Shown in pieces: positions 7,621 through 13,596 of a stretch of DNA of 64,000 nucleotides. Below the pieces are notes generated by a model, which was given only the letters and a program-made list of their open reading frames with translations, did not search any database and was not told the origin of the DNA. Within the stretch, counting starts at the first letter, position 1. Each line of letters opens with the position of its first letter. Made by a program: the position numbers and the translations under genes. The DNA comes from Methanococcus aeolicus Nankai-3 (GTDB lineage Archaea; AGJL01; Methanococci; Methanococcales; Methanococcaceae), in NCBI RefSeq assembly GCF_000017185.1, contig NC_009635.1, positions 1,325,189 to 1,389,188 on the forward strand. Direction: 5' to 3'.

Positions 7621-7851
7621 TATAATTTGGGCATATATTACATAGAACATAAAGGGAGCTCCCTTTTATTGTTCCCTTTTTTAAATATATCTATTTATTT
7701 TTTTGTTCTGGATTTTGTTTAATTAAAGAAATATTTATTAGAAATAAACAATAATTAACCGCCTTTTGATGAAATCAAATCGAAAATAATATATATTATT
7801 AATCAATGACATATTTATTTAGATATTAATTTAATTTATGAGGTGAATCAC
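7621..7851 (+). promoter_or_regulatory. mcr-mtr spacer: T-rich terminator and mtr promoter
   Basis: After mcrA a near-perfect palindrome, AAAGGGAGCTCCCTTTT at 7651-7667 built on the GGAGCTCC octamer, is followed by a second CCCTTTTTT run, a plausible terminator. Further on, AAAATAATATATATTATTAA at about 7783-7802 fits a TATA box some 50 nt before mtrE, whose Shine-Dalgarno is GAGGTGA at 7840. These roles are inferred from position. Confidence 0.5.
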
Positions 7852-8754
7852 ATGGACCCAACATTGTTAGCTCTCGGAGCTCTTGCATTATCAGGAGCCG
7901 CTGCTACTGTGGCAGGATGTGCAGAAGATTTGGAATCTGATGTAGGTTCTCAGTCAAACCCTAACTCCCAGGTTCAATTAGGTCCTCAAATGGGGAATAT
8001 CCACAGATACTTTAACAAAGCTATCTCTGGGGAACCTGTATCCTATGGATTATATGTTGCTGCGGCTGGTGCTACTGCATGGGCATTGATGGGTATGAAT
8101 TTAAACCCTATTCTTGCAATTATAGTAGGTTCAGCAGTTGCTGCATTAGTTCACGGTGCTTACTCAGTAAGTGCATTTTTAGGTAGGATTGTAGGACAAT
8201 CAAAGAACTTTGGACAGCCAGTATATATGGATGTAATGATGGGCCATTTAGGCCCTATTGTAGGTCATGGTTTTATTGCCGTATTTTGTATGCTTTTTGC
8301 CGCATATTTGGCAGTTAATGCATTAGGAAATCCATTCCCATTACCATTGGTTGCATTAATATTTGGTATTACCGTAGGTGCTATTGGTTCCTCAACAGGG
8401 GATGTTCATTATGGTGCTGAAAGAGAATATCAAAAATACGCATTTGGCGGTGGAATACCTGTTGCCAACCAAGGAGATATAGACATTATGGCAGAAACTG
8501 GTATTAGAAATGGTTTAGATTCTTCATATTTCTGTTCAAAATTGGGTGGTCCTTTAACAGGTCTTGCGTTTGGTCTTATCATATTCCTTGATGGATGGAG
8601 GTCAATACTTGGAAATATAATAGGCGGAGATTTAATAACAAAGGCGGCTATTGCTATTGTGGTTGGTCTTATTGTGGTTATTACTACATTATTACTCAAC
8701 AGAAAAATCGAAGTATATGCTAGAAATAAATTTGGACCATATACAGATAGGTAA
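7852..8754 (+). CDS. mtrE: Methyl-H4MPT:coenzyme M methyltransferase subunit E
   Basis: MtrE, 300 aa, an integral membrane subunit of the sodium-pumping methyltransferase. I start at ATG 7852 (MDPTLLALGALALSGAAATV), 8 nt after GAGGTGA, instead of an upstream in-frame codon. About six hydrophobic segments are visible, for example near residues 55-75, 85-105, 135-180 and 255-285. The cytoplasmic loop GDVHYGAEREYQKYAFGGG is conserved. First gene of the eight-subunit mtr operon. Confidence 0.97.
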   Translation: MDPTLLALGALALSGAAATVAGCAEDLESDVGSQSNPNSQVQLGPQMGNIHRYFNKAISGEPVSYGLYVAAAGATAWALMGMNLNPILAIIVGSAVAALVHGAYSVSAFLGRIVGQSKNFGQPVYMDVMMGHLGPIVGHGFIAVFCMLFAAYLAVNALGNPFPLPLVALIFGITVGAIGSSTGDVHYGAEREYQKYAFGGGIPVANQGDIDIMAETGIRNGLDSSYFCSKLGGPLTGLAFGLIIFLDGWRSILGNIIGGDLITKAAIAIVVGLIVVITTLLLNRKIEVYARNKFGPYTDR

Positions 8755-8774: not shown

Positions 8775-9491
8775 ATGGTAAATATTGACATTGTAAGTTT
8801 GGCAATCCCTCTTGCAGAAATCACAATTGCGGGTGCCATTATTAATGCTAGTGTTCATTTTGTTCCAGTGGGTGGAGCTCCTGCGGCTATGGCTACTTCA
8901 ACAGGAGTAGGTACAGGAACTACACAGTTGGCAGCAGGTGCTGGGTTCACTGGTTTAATGGCTGCTGCAGCATTGGCAGCTCAATCAGGTATTAGTTTAA
9001 CAAATCCACTCCATTTAGCTCTTATTATGGCATCAGGAGCAGTGGGTTCTATGATTATGCTTGGATTAACTATGTTAATTGGGCAAATGATTTATGTATA
9101 TGGTATTGGAGTAGTTCCAGCAGCAGATAAAGTAGATAAAGACCCCTTTACAGGAGATTATCAAAAATCCTACATTACTCCGGGAACAACAGGACATGCA
9201 ATTCCAACAGTATGTTTTATAAGTGGTTTAATCGGAGCAGCACTTGGAGGTATTGGTGGAGGTCTTGCTTATATTGCATTTAAATTATTGGGATTCTCCT
9301 CAGAAGTTTCAGGAGTTATTGCAGTTGGGTTTTTCTTCTTGAATGCTGTTCTTGCATCATATAATATCGGGGGAACAACAGAAGGATTCCACGACCCAAA
9401 ATTCAAGAAAATACACTTCGGAATCGTAGCTTCATTTGTAGCTTCATTGTTATGTGGAGTTATTATTTCAGGAATGTCATTAGGAATTTAA
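8775..9491 (+). CDS. mtrD: Methyl-H4MPT:coenzyme M methyltransferase subunit D
   Basis: MtrD, 238 aa, membrane subunit of the methyltransferase. With MtrC and MtrE it forms the membrane part that moves sodium. Start ATG 8775 follows GGTGATG. The Gly/Ala-rich first third ([18 protein letters not shown], about 32-49) and a C-terminal [18 protein letters not shown] helix are family features. Six or so membrane segments are apparent. The only GGAGCTCC of the mtr operon is here, at 8874, coding Gly-Ala-Pro. Confidence 0.97.
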
Positions 9492-9660: not shown

Positions 9661-10488
9661 ATGAGTCATGGTGGTGGAGGACACGCAGCAGAAAGATATC
9701 CTGAAGGTCAGGTTTTATTAGCTGGTTCAGTTCTCGCAATCATTGGTATGTATATTGCACATTTTGCTACGCAATTTGGATATGGACAATTGTCTATGTT
9801 GGTGGGCGGACTTTTAGCAGTTGCGGCTACTGTGGCAGGTGCAAATACTACAAGAAAAGTAGCAGCTTATGGATTAGGAACAGGAGTTCCCTCCATTGGT
9901 ATGGCTGCATTAGGTATGGGGACAATTGCAACATTGGCAGGAATATTAATTCCCTCAGTATTGATATCACAGTTCGCATTTCCTAATGAAATAATTTATG
10001 CTATACCAATATTAATATCAATAGTGGCATTAATATTAGGTGTAGTTGTAGGAAAATTAACAGTAAATCCAATTGGAATGAAAGTTCCTATTATGGTTCA
10101 AAGTATGACTTACTTGTCATTAATGGGTGCATTATCTGTTTCAGGATTTTGTATAGCATTTGCAGGTGGTTTTACCCCTGATGTATTTATGGCAGGTGCA
10201 GTTAAAACTGGAATTATTGGATTGGCATTTATTGCAGCAGGTATGGCAATATTACATCCATTTAACGCATGTTTGGGTCCAAACGAAGACCATGGAAGAA
10301 CATTAAAATTGGCATTAGCTTGTGGATTGATAACATGGTTTATGTTTGCAGTAGCTAAGTTAGATGTTATTTCTTCAATTGTGTCATTAATACTTTGGGC
10401 ATTAGTTTATGTTTCATTTGTAAAACAATCATTAAACGATGCATGCGATGTATTATATACGCCAGAATTGCCTAAGAAGGAAGATTAA
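9661..10488 (+). CDS. mtrC: Methyl-H4MPT:coenzyme M methyltransferase subunit C
   Basis: MtrC, 275 aa, integral membrane subunit. The short cytoplasmic start [20 protein letters not shown] is followed by about eight hydrophobic segments. Conserved loop features include [20 protein letters not shown] near 140-159 and the acidic [18 protein letters not shown] near 201-218. The ribosome site is GAGGTG. MtrC, D and E together make up the membrane module linking methyl transfer from MtrA to sodium export. Confidence 0.97.
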
Positions 10489-10497
10489 GGTGGTATT

Positions 10498-10824
10498 ATG
10501 GAATTAGTTAAAATATGCCCAGAAATTGGAATTGTGATGGATGTCGATACAGGAATAGTTGCCGAAATGAGGAAAGATATTCTTGTAGTTGATTTAAATC
10601 CAATTAAAGAGGAAATAAATAAATTAGAAACATTATCCAAAGCATTTGAAAATTCGCTTGACCCAAGAAGTGCTCCATTAAAAGCATACGATGGAAGGGA
10701 CAATATATACAGTGTTGGAGGTCTATTCCAAAGTGCATTCTTTGGTTTCTGGATATCTTTATCAATATTAACATTGGGATTAATACTTGTAATAGGTTTA
10801 TATCCTAAATTAATAGGGTTATAA
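10498..10824 (+). CDS. mtrB: Methyl-H4MPT:coenzyme M methyltransferase subunit B
   Basis: MtrB, 108 aa, small subunit with a soluble N-terminal part and a single C-terminal membrane helix ([20 protein letters not shown], about 83-102). It starts 9 nt after mtrC with an AAGGTGG ribosome site within the mtrC stop region. The [20 protein letters not shown] segment near residues 42-61 is conserved. Its stop overlaps the start of the direct repeat carrying the two mtrA copies. Confidence 0.95.
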
Positions 10825-11373
10825 TTTGGAGGTGCTAATATATGGCAGATAAAAAAGCTCCTGCATCAGGATGGCCAATAGTAAGTGGCGAATATGTTGT
10901 AGGAAACCCAGAAAGCTGTGTAGCAGTTGTAACATTGGGTTCCCATGGTTTAGATGAAGCAGCTATTGAAGCAGGTGCTGCTATTTCAGGACCATGCCAC
11001 ACAGAAAATTTAGGGATTGAAAAAGTTGTAGCTAATTATATATCAAATCCAAACATTAGGTTTATGTTGGTTACTGGTTCCGAAGTTCAAGGACATATTA
11101 CAGGACAGTGCTTTAAAGCATTGTATGAAAATGGAATTGGAGATGATGGAGGAATTATTGGAGCAAAAGGAGCTATTCCATTTTTGGAAAATGCTGGACA
11201 AGATGCTATCAGTAGATTCCAAAATCAACTTGTGGAAATTGTAGATTTGATTGATGTTGAAGATACAGGTAAAATAAGCAGTGCTATTAAAGACTGTATT
11301 TCAAAAGACCCTGGTGCTTTCGAAGAAGATCCAATGATATTGGATTTAGAAGGCGGCGGTGGAGAAGCTGGAG
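10821..11373 (+). repeat. 553-bp direct repeat, left copy (mtrA N-terminal region)
   Basis: Bases 10821-11373 match 11584-12136 at a fixed offset of 763, covering the ribosome site, start codon and first 177 or so codons of both MtrA-type genes. I see only two differences: C/T at 11284 versus 12047 (Ala to Val) and C/T at 11354 versus 12117 (silent). The flanks on both sides are unrelated. Such identity, including silent sites and the leader, points to recent duplication or gene conversion. Confidence 0.93.
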
Positions 11374-11564
11374 CTGATGAATCTACATCAATAAAACCAG
11401 CTGCGCCAGAAACAGTATTATTGGAAGCAAGAATGAGAATGATATCTGAAAAAATAAATGATGCAGCATTAATAGCAAAATTCAATTCAGGATATTATAA
11501 TGGAAAAATACAAGGAATTGCAATAGGGTTGTTCCTATCTTTGTTAATATTCTCCTTGTTATAG
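10842..11564 (+). CDS. mtrA: Methyl-H4MPT:coenzyme M methyltransferase subunit A (corrinoid protein)
   Basis: MtrA, 240 aa. It carries the cobamide that accepts the methyl group from methyl-H4MPT (via MtrH) and passes it to coenzyme M. The corrinoid ligand is His85 in [10 protein letters not shown]. The soluble domain spans about 1-170, followed by a linker with [11 protein letters not shown], then a C-terminal membrane helix ([18 protein letters not shown]). The first 177 residues are almost identical to the next gene, which is an MtrA/MtrF fusion. This copy is the orthodox MtrA. Confidence 0.96.
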
Positions 11565-11583
11565 ATATATATTGCAGATATGA

Positions 11584-12136
11584 ATAATTTGGAGGTGCTA
11601 ATATATGGCAGATAAAAAAGCTCCTGCATCAGGATGGCCAATAGTAAGTGGCGAATATGTTGTAGGAAACCCAGAAAGCTGTGTAGCAGTTGTAACATTG
11701 GGTTCCCATGGTTTAGATGAAGCAGCTATTGAAGCAGGTGCTGCTATTTCAGGACCATGCCACACAGAAAATTTAGGGATTGAAAAAGTTGTAGCTAATT
11801 ATATATCAAATCCAAACATTAGGTTTATGTTGGTTACTGGTTCCGAAGTTCAAGGACATATTACAGGACAGTGCTTTAAAGCATTGTATGAAAATGGAAT
11901 TGGAGATGATGGAGGAATTATTGGAGCAAAAGGAGCTATTCCATTTTTGGAAAATGCTGGACAAGATGCTATCAGTAGATTCCAAAATCAACTTGTGGAA
12001 ATTGTAGATTTGATTGATGTTGAAGATACAGGTAAAATAAGCAGTGTTATTAAAGACTGTATTTCAAAAGACCCTGGTGCTTTCGAAGAAGATCCAATGA
12101 TATTGGATTTAGAAGGTGGCGGTGGAGAAGCTGGAG
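11584..12136 (+). repeat. 553-bp direct repeat, right copy
   Basis: Second copy of the repeat at 10821-11373. It includes the same leader ATAATTTGGAGGTGCTAATA and codes for residues 1-177 of the MtrA/MtrF fusion. Identity stops inside the glycine-rich linker (GGGGEAG), exactly where the two proteins begin to differ. The repeat makes the locus liable to deletion or conversion by recombination between copies. Confidence 0.93.
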
Positions 12137-12369
12137 ATGGAGACGGTGGCGAAGGATTTGCTATCGAGGGAATTCCTTCATCAGTTGAGCCAGATTTAGA
12201 ATATACAAAAAAATTCATGGACACTCTTGACTACAAAGTAAGTTTGATTACAAGAGAAGTTGGTCTGTCTTCTGGAACTCAGTTAAAATCCATTGAAGGA
12301 GCAATTTATGGTTCTATATTGGCCGTGGTGTTGGTAGGAATTCCAGTTCTATTAAAATTAGTATTGTAG
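11605..12369 (+). CDS. mtrF: MtrA-MtrF fusion subunit of the methyltransferase
   Basis: 254 aa. Residues 1-177 duplicate MtrA, including corrinoid-ligand His85; residues about 190-254 are MtrF-like, with [20 protein letters not shown] and the membrane helix [20 protein letters not shown]. Fusions of MtrA and MtrF are known in some methanogens, and this gene holds the mtrF position in the operon. Whether the extra MtrA domain binds cobamide in the complex is not shown. One substitution (Val for Ala near residue 148) separates it from MtrA. Could be annotated simply as MtrF. Confidence 0.92.
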
Positions 12370-12377
12370 GTGGTTGA

Positions 12378-12602
12378 ATGTCAGAAATACCAACTGTTAT
12401 AGTTCCATCAAAGGAATACAAAGAATTGCAGGAAAAATTAGATGGTATTGAACAAACCGTAGAAAATACCAATGCCGAAATTATCCAAACATTGGGTAAA
12501 AAAGCGGGAAGAGATGTTGGTATAGTATATGGGTTTGCAATAGGATTAGTATTTGTAATGGTAGTTGGAAAATTATTGCCAATATTTAGTAAATTCCTAT
12601 AA
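12378..12602 (+). CDS. mtrG: Methyl-H4MPT:coenzyme M methyltransferase subunit G
   Basis: MtrG, 74 aa, small single-span membrane subunit. N-terminal soluble part with a helical segment EYKELQEKLDGIEQTVENTN, then the membrane helix VGIVYGFAIGLVFVMVVG near residues 47-64. Starts 8 nt after the MtrA/F fusion with GTAGGTGG as ribosome site. Length and order are those of other mtr operons. Confidence 0.95.
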   Translation: MSEIPTVIVPSKEYKELQEKLDGIEQTVENTNAEIIQTLGKKAGRDVGIVYGFAIGLVFVMVVGKLLPIFSKFL

Positions 12603-12636: not shown

Positions 12637-13596
12637 ATGTTCAAATTTGATAAAGAACAGATGGTTATTGAAATCGCAGGTAGAAAATTCGGCGGTCAGC
12701 CGGGAGAATACCCAACAGGTCTATCTGGAACAATATTTTATGCAAGACACAAAATTGTAGAAGATGAAATAAAAGGGATTTTCGATAAATCCGCAGCAGA
12801 AGCATTAATAAACAAACAAGCTGAAATGGAAGACACCACAGGAAACCCTGCATTAGTTCAGGTATTTGGTGGAAACCCAGAGGCATTAACAAAATATATC
12901 GACTTCGTAGCTGAAGTATGGGATGGTCCAATGTTATTGGACTCCACATCAGGAGAAGCTAGAATGGCAGCCGCTACAAGGGCAACCGAAGCAGGATATG
13001 CAAATCAATGTATTTACAACTCTATCAATGTTTCAATAGATGAGGCAGAATTCCAAAACTTGGTAGAAAGTGATATAGAAGCTTCCATTGTGTTGTGTTT
13101 CGACCCAATGGACCCATCAGTTGAAGGTAAATTAAATGTGTTGTTAGATGGTGGAAAAACAACAGATACAGGTATGCTTGATTTAGCTGAAAAAGCGGGA
13201 ATTAAATACCCATTAATTGATGTTGCATGTACTCCATTAGGAAGTGGTGCAGGTCAGTCTGTAAGGGCATCATTCGCTGTTAAAGCAAAATTAGGTCTTC
13301 CAGTAGGTAGTGGTATCCACAACATCCCATCAGCATGGGACTGGTTAAGAGATTTCAGAAAAGGATTAAGAGAAGCAGGACAAACCCAATTAGCAAAAGA
13401 TGTTCATCATGTTTGTGATATTGGAGCTAATATTGTTCAAACAATGGGTTCCGGAGACTTTGTTTTATACGGACCTATTGACAATGCAGAATTAGCATTC
13501 CCAGCAGTTGCTATGACCGATATGGTTATTGCAGAAACAGCAAAAGATATGGGAACAGTTCCAGTAGATACCCATCCAATAAACAAATTGTTATAA
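12637..13596 (+). CDS. mtrH: Methyl-H4MPT:coenzyme M methyltransferase subunit H
   Basis: MtrH, 319 aa, the soluble subunit that transfers the methyl group from methyl-tetrahydromethanopterin to the cob(I)amide of MtrA. It has a TIM-barrel fold of the methyltetrahydrofolate-binding family. N-terminus MFKFDKEQMVIEIAGRKFGG and the segment LPVGSGIHNIPSAWDW near 228-243 are conserved. ATG 12637 follows AAGGTGG; the TTG one codon upstream is less suitable. Last gene of the mtr operon. Confidence 0.97.
   Translation: MFKFDKEQMVIEIAGRKFGGQPGEYPTGLSGTIFYARHKIVEDEIKGIFDKSAAEALINKQAEMEDTTGNPALVQVFGGNPEALTKYIDFVAEVWDGPMLLDSTSGEARMAAATRATEAGYANQCIYNSINVSIDEAEFQNLVESDIEASIVLCFDPMDPSVEGKLNVLLDGGKTTDTGMLDLAEKAGIKYPLIDVACTPLGSGAGQSVRASFAVKAKLGLPVGSGIHNIPSAWDWLRDFRKGLREAGQTQLAKDVHHVCDIGANIVQTMGSGDFVLYGPIDNAELAFPAVAMTDMVIAETAKDMGTVPVDTHPINKLL

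Follow-up and report, generated by a model that had tools for sequence, protein, structure and literature searches.

Two MtrA corrinoid domains on different anchors, probably kept alike by gene conversion, in the mtr operon of Methanococcus aeolicus and its relatives

The window analysed here, a stretch of 64,000 nt from Methanococcus aeolicus Nankai-3 that forms part of a single-contig genome of 1,569,500 bp, harbors a complete mtr operon in the order mcrCGA-mtrE-D-C-B-A-(A-F)-G-H (Table 1). Comparison of the window sequence with itself revealed two 553-nt copies, in register at an offset of 763 nt, with two mismatches. This repeat, reported in a preliminary description of the sequence and now placed at exact positions, is far beyond what chance would produce. 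It takes in a 21-nt leader with a GGAGGTG ribosome site, and the first 177 residues are common to mtrA-1 and to the MtrA-MtrF fusion except at residue 148, where the first mismatch (C at 11284, T at 12047) gives Ala148 in mtrA-1 and Val148 in the fusion. The second mismatch (C at 11354, T at 12117) lies in a Gly codon and is silent. Downstream of the repeat, copy 1 continues into the MtrA stalk and membrane helix and copy 2 into MtrF.

Table 1. Positions of the repeat, the mtr genes and the sites discussed in the text (window coordinates unless a contig is named)
Feature	Position	Strand	Remarks
mtrE	7843..8754	+	from operon position, counterparts in relatives and known mtrEDCBAFGH order
mtrD	8775..9491	+	from operon position, counterparts in relatives and known mtrEDCBAFGH order
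mtrC	9661..10488	+	from operon position, counterparts in relatives and known mtrEDCBAFGH order
mtrB	10498..10824	+	PF05440; final bases overlap the repeated leader
Repeat copy 1	10821..11373	+	leader, corrinoid domain, Connectase site, start of Gly-rich linker
mtrA-1	10842..11564	+	240 aa; corrinoid domain with its own stalk/membrane helix; PF04208, TIGR01111
His85 codon, copy 1 (lower cobalt ligand)	11094..11096	+	invariant in all copies compared
Connectase recognition site, MtrA-1	11304..11348	+	15 residues; motif per PMC10154401
Repeat copy 2	11584..12136	+	553 nt, 2 mismatches to copy 1
mtrA-2a (MtrA-MtrF fusion)	11605..12369	+	254 aa; PF04208 and PF09472
His85 codon, copy 2 (fusion)	11857..11859	+	invariant in all copies compared
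Connectase recognition site, MtrA-F fusion	12067..12111	+	same 15 residues as MtrA-1; motif per PMC10154401
MtrF part of fusion	12169..12369	+	PF09472 from residue 189; TIGR02507 at 189-252
mtrG	12378..12602	+	PF04210
mtrH	12637..13596	+	from operon position, counterparts in relatives and known mtrEDCBAFGH order
Stub-clade genomes	G028 L098:7992-8321		matching ORFs in G022, G024, G025, G026, G030, G032

Domain models confirm that one copy leads to an MtrA membrane helix and the other to MtrF, as had been read from the sequence. The MtrA domain PF04208 passes its cut-off of 25 bits in both proteins (275.5 bits for mtrA-1, 274 bits for the fusion), and TIGR01111 scores 371.7 bits on mtrA-1 (cut-off 249). 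The MtrF domain of the fusion is recognized by PF09472 (55.5 bits, cut-off 22) and TIGR02507 (60.9 bits, cut-off 25), while the 70-position equivalog model PRK13275 gives 52 bits on the MtrF part, under its cut-off of 64. His85, the lower cobalt ligand (PMC4915002, PMC12774963), is intact in both copies, as are Glu55 and GAIPFLEN; the lower-ligand His, Glu54/55 and the GAIPF meander are kept in both copies and in all relatives compared. An AlphaFold model of MtrA-F, built on a 19-row alignment, had a mean pLDDT of 47.5 and was too poor for a fold search; the sequence match to solved MtrA (5L8X, 8Q3V, 9QTQ) was used in its place. A search of the whole genome found no third MtrA domain elsewhere.

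Neither the pair nor its conversion is new, since Wang et al. 2015 (PMC4632066) described mtrA-1 with an mtrA-mtrF fusion in Methanococcales and an mtrA-mtrG fusion in Methanomicrobiales, reported that the domains are held alike by long-lasting gene conversion, and included M. aeolicus Nankai-3 in their data (Figure 2). As far as the literature consulted shows, what is new are the three architectures within the order and a clade of seven genomes without the mtrA-1 corrinoid domain.

We searched 36 Methanococcales genomes and recovered 31 operons, 11 of them dual, i.e. with both MtrA-1 and MtrA-F. At four-fold sites, the two copies differ at 1 of 71 positions in this genome and at 11 of 812 over the 11 dual genomes pooled, nine of these eleven differences being in G016; between species, a median of 44% of such sites differ, and 22 of 65 do so between this genome and its least distant dual relative. 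The equalisation of the copies by gene conversion, suggested in the preliminary description and already published, is thus well borne out. Apart from G016, the copies within dual genomes differ at 0–8 tract positions. In the domain tree, the two copies from one genome, or from near-identical species, pair together, and a topology that unites the fusion copies in a single clade is rejected (p-AU = 2e-51); the copies therefore evolve in concert, paralogues pairing within genomes rather than fusion copies forming one orthologous clade across species. The tract begins at the ribosome-site leader in every dual genome, and in 10 of the 11 it extends from −14 to −27 up to about +516 to +536, ending just past residue 172, where homology ends. 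G016 is a mosaic, with 12 differences over 300 positions in the core (nt 60–360) and 39 over 156 at the 3′ edge, and its mtrA-1 has QDPDA in place of KDPGA with the cobalamin residues kept, a pattern which shows that gene conversion has apparently lapsed in part. Overall, we infer from these patterns, which support it, that recurrent gene conversion spans the leader, the domain and the Connectase site.

Three architectures are found among the 31 operons. The dual state is present in 11, from five genera; MtrA with a free MtrF occurs in another 11, including G004 and G023; and in seven, an MtrA stub of 106–127 aa accompanies a full MtrA-F fusion. The seven stub genomes form one clade (support 93/100 in the mcr/mtr protein tree) and come from independent sources, namely single-cell and metagenome assemblies and one single-contig genome (G028). 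No further full MtrA domain was found in these seven genomes, and the MtrA domain of their fusion has all cobalamin residues. Because this clade carries its MtrA domain on the fusion only, the fused corrinoid domain must work, and relatives lacking any other MtrA domain thus strongly support a working fused carrier. The stub retains its ribosome site, with traces of the MtrA N-terminus in G026 and G030, and the pN/pS of its anchor tail (0.04–0.18) indicates a working protein. It follows that the anchor is needed even without its own domain and that the MtrF-borne domain suffices; since single-domain genomes of either kind exist, two carriers are not generally essential. Such an anchor stub of MtrA is easily overlooked in annotation. 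Among ten Methanomicrobiales genomes, mostly with a single MtrA match, there was no clear case of an anchor-only MtrA, one 119-aa frame being present in G098.

Mapped on the mcr/mtr protein tree, the three states are accounted for by four changes, and the dual state would most simply be ancestral to the family. The free MtrF of G029 and of G005/6/10/13 is similar to the fused type (IEGIP...), which suggests that it may be a fusion that lost its MtrA domain. Two genomes with the fusion and no mtrA-1, G001 and G034, were excluded from the counts as possible repeat collapses; where mtrA-1 would be expected, G001 (L093 5564-7622, reversed strand) carries mtrC-mtrB duplicated exactly over 898 bp, either a rearrangement or an assembly error. 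A Methanothermococcus-like mtr contig binned in a “Bacteroidales” MAG (L091:1-1000; JASGMZ010000055.1) is scrambled at the mtrA repeat. Three genomes (G019, G020, G021) have a partly conserved AT-rich spacer of 266–297 bp between mtrA-1 and the fusion, which other species lack. MtrB, MtrF and MtrG of G023 (L095) resemble the divergent M. jannaschii-type stalk, at 38–55% identity to the window, and its MtrA is 87% identical to that of the window; stalk genes were possibly exchanged between lineages.

MtrF has a single match in each of the 27 good-quality Methanococcales genomes (27/27). The fusion is therefore the only MtrF of dual species, M. aeolicus included, and, barring cleavage, each of their complexes contains the fused carrier. 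In the M. aeolicus fusion gene, we found no internal in-frame start, preceded by a ribosome site, from which a free MtrF could be made. The fusions of G015, G017 and G018 have GGAGG or GGTGG shortly before an in-frame ATG at codon 184, the exact start of MtrF, and these M. maripaludis-like genomes might also make a free MtrF from the internal start. Assuming that MtrA-1 and MtrA-F are both present 1:1 and that MtrA-F is uncut, the methyltransferase would likely have two corrinoid sites per protomer; purification of a Methanococcus complex did not come up in the literature consulted. The preliminary description had proposed such sites “in this organism”: the dual state does occur here, and the restriction to one organism proved too narrow, given its spread over the order.

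In solved structures, the stalk is made up of MtrA, B, F and G, and the corrinoid domain, disordered on a Glu/Gly-rich linker, moves back and forth between MtrH and the cavity of MtrCDE (PMC10998594). The sheet beneath MtrH is built from the N-termini of MtrB, F and G, and the M. mazei complex contains three MtrH dimers, i.e. six sites, versus three MtrA (PMC12774963). In dual species, the first carrier would hang on the MtrA stalk helix and the second on the N-terminus of MtrF in the same stalk; fusion to this N-terminus (to MtrG in Methanomicrobiales) would place the extra carrier at the sheet under MtrH. The two mobile carriers of each protomer would then alternate between MtrH, where the methyl group would be loaded from CH3-H4MPT, and the MtrCDE cavity, where it would be unloaded to coenzyme M with Na+ export. 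Conversion would equalise the carrier only and never the anchors, because homology stops at the Gly/Glu linker. A crossover between the repeats would remove the MtrA-1 anchor; such deletions should be lost, and conversion should persist, because this anchor is under strong purifying selection even when domainless. Overall, we consider it quite probable, and the best explanation, that the carrier domain was duplicated onto MtrA and MtrF anchors and equalised by conversion, providing two mobile carriers per protomer.

It is rather improbable that in dual species one domain alone is the carrier, the other being a gene-dosage or structural passenger homogenised by conversion. Relatives with a single domain do thrive, and the mtrA-1 of G016 has diverged, its Connectase motif included; however, every cobalamin residue is present in both copies, even in this diverged copy 1, each position is the sole one in some genomes, and both genes are cited as essential in M. 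maripaludis by Wang et al. (PMC4632066). The near-identity of the copies, taken alone, would also be compatible with a duplication and fusion that arose recently and separately from lineage to lineage, rather than with an old pair held alike by conversion. We hold this to be very unlikely, as the layout and the fusion point are the same in 11 genomes of five genera, the anchors have diverged (the MtrF part is 46–63% identical to that of M. aeolicus), G016 is a mosaic and the old fusion is still found in the stub clade. Finally, an artificial duplication or collapse in the assembly, a concern already raised in the preliminary description, can practically be discounted: although the repeat does break short-read assemblies, with L091 scrambled exactly there and G001 and G034 without mtrA-1 at the join, the copies in the window differ from each other and run into distinct tails, and ten further genomes, single-contig ones among them, share the layout.

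Connectase is a protein ligase whose natural substrate is the MtrA linker: it cleaves KD-/-PGA and ligates the left-hand part to whichever partner starts with PGA and ten residues (PMC10154401, PMC11961121). MtrA-1 and MtrA-F both have K-D-P-G-A at residues 155–159, followed by the same ten residues as in MtrA, and the site of both copies, which the preliminary description does not mention, falls within the conversion tract. It is present in both copies in 10 of the 11 dual Methanococcales and in most of the Methanomicrobiales pairs examined. The genome of the window encodes Connectase (G000:C1:1247667-1248236, E 5e-58), and its family, PF09894, occurs in 33 of the 36 genomes, this one included, and in six of the seven stub genomes. 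The occurrence of the site on two different anchors would in principle permit an exchange between these.

In the stub clade, fusion and stub each carry part of the Connectase site, which is split at the scissile bond. All seven fusions keep the donor half, ten residues from P7 to P3′, and the fusion has Glu-Glu at P9′-P10′; all seven stubs keep the acceptor half from P1′ to P16′ (PGAxDE[E/D]PMILDLEGG), have Asn replacing Asp at P1, and do not keep P7 to P2. The stub sequence across the divided site reads EN-/-PGAIDEEPMILDL. The corresponding segment of the M. marburgensis linker precedes residue 178, where the ordered model starts, so that its conservation is not obviously structural; the segment either serves Connectase or has an unseen role beside the anchor. 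A tentative reading, which we deem rather doubtful, is that the carrier domain could be a cargo exchangeable by Connectase between MtrA and MtrF anchors, the site being divided in the stub clade, where a complete MtrA might be assembled post-translationally from two proteins. Alternatively, the change from Asp to Asn at P1 could turn the stub into a docking site that Connectase cannot cleave. In the literature consulted, PMC12774963 alone mentions both Connectase and MtrF, and it makes no connection between the two. The presence of the site in both copies offers a concrete handle on the cellular role of Connectase.

Mtr serves methanogenesis as its Na+ pump, and the question at issue is how its single mobile carrier links the transfer of methyl groups with pumping. 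Should both carriers be functional, their number would be six and equal that of the six MtrH sites of M. mazei. Dual, MtrA-only and MtrF-only species together constitute a natural experiment that reveals the anchor required by the carrier, and Methanococcus, being amenable to genetics, allows the question to be put to the test.

The Mtr complexes of Methanothermobacter marburgensis (8Q3V) and Methanosarcina mazei (9QTQ) have the same subunits, with a mobile corrinoid domain, a Glu/Gly linker and the His84/His85 ligand, but differ in their free MtrF and single corrinoid domain per protomer, M. mazei having six MtrH against three MtrA. The pair of Wang et al. is identical in genes, order, MtrF fusion and within-genome homogenisation, and the window shows no difference from it; the anchor-only relatives, the tract limits including the leader, and the Connectase site are absent from the main text of that study (PMC4632066). 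The MtrA-MtrG fusions of Methanomicrobiales (PMC4632066; PMC2686161) likewise place a second MtrA domain on another stalk subunit and are also homogenised, at 92.4% on average (PMC4632066), whereas their partner is MtrG and their origin independent. With the Connectase-MtrA system (PMC10154401, PMC11961121), the locus shares the MtrA linker KDPGA plus about ten residues and the genome shares the Connectase gene, but here the site sits on two different anchors.
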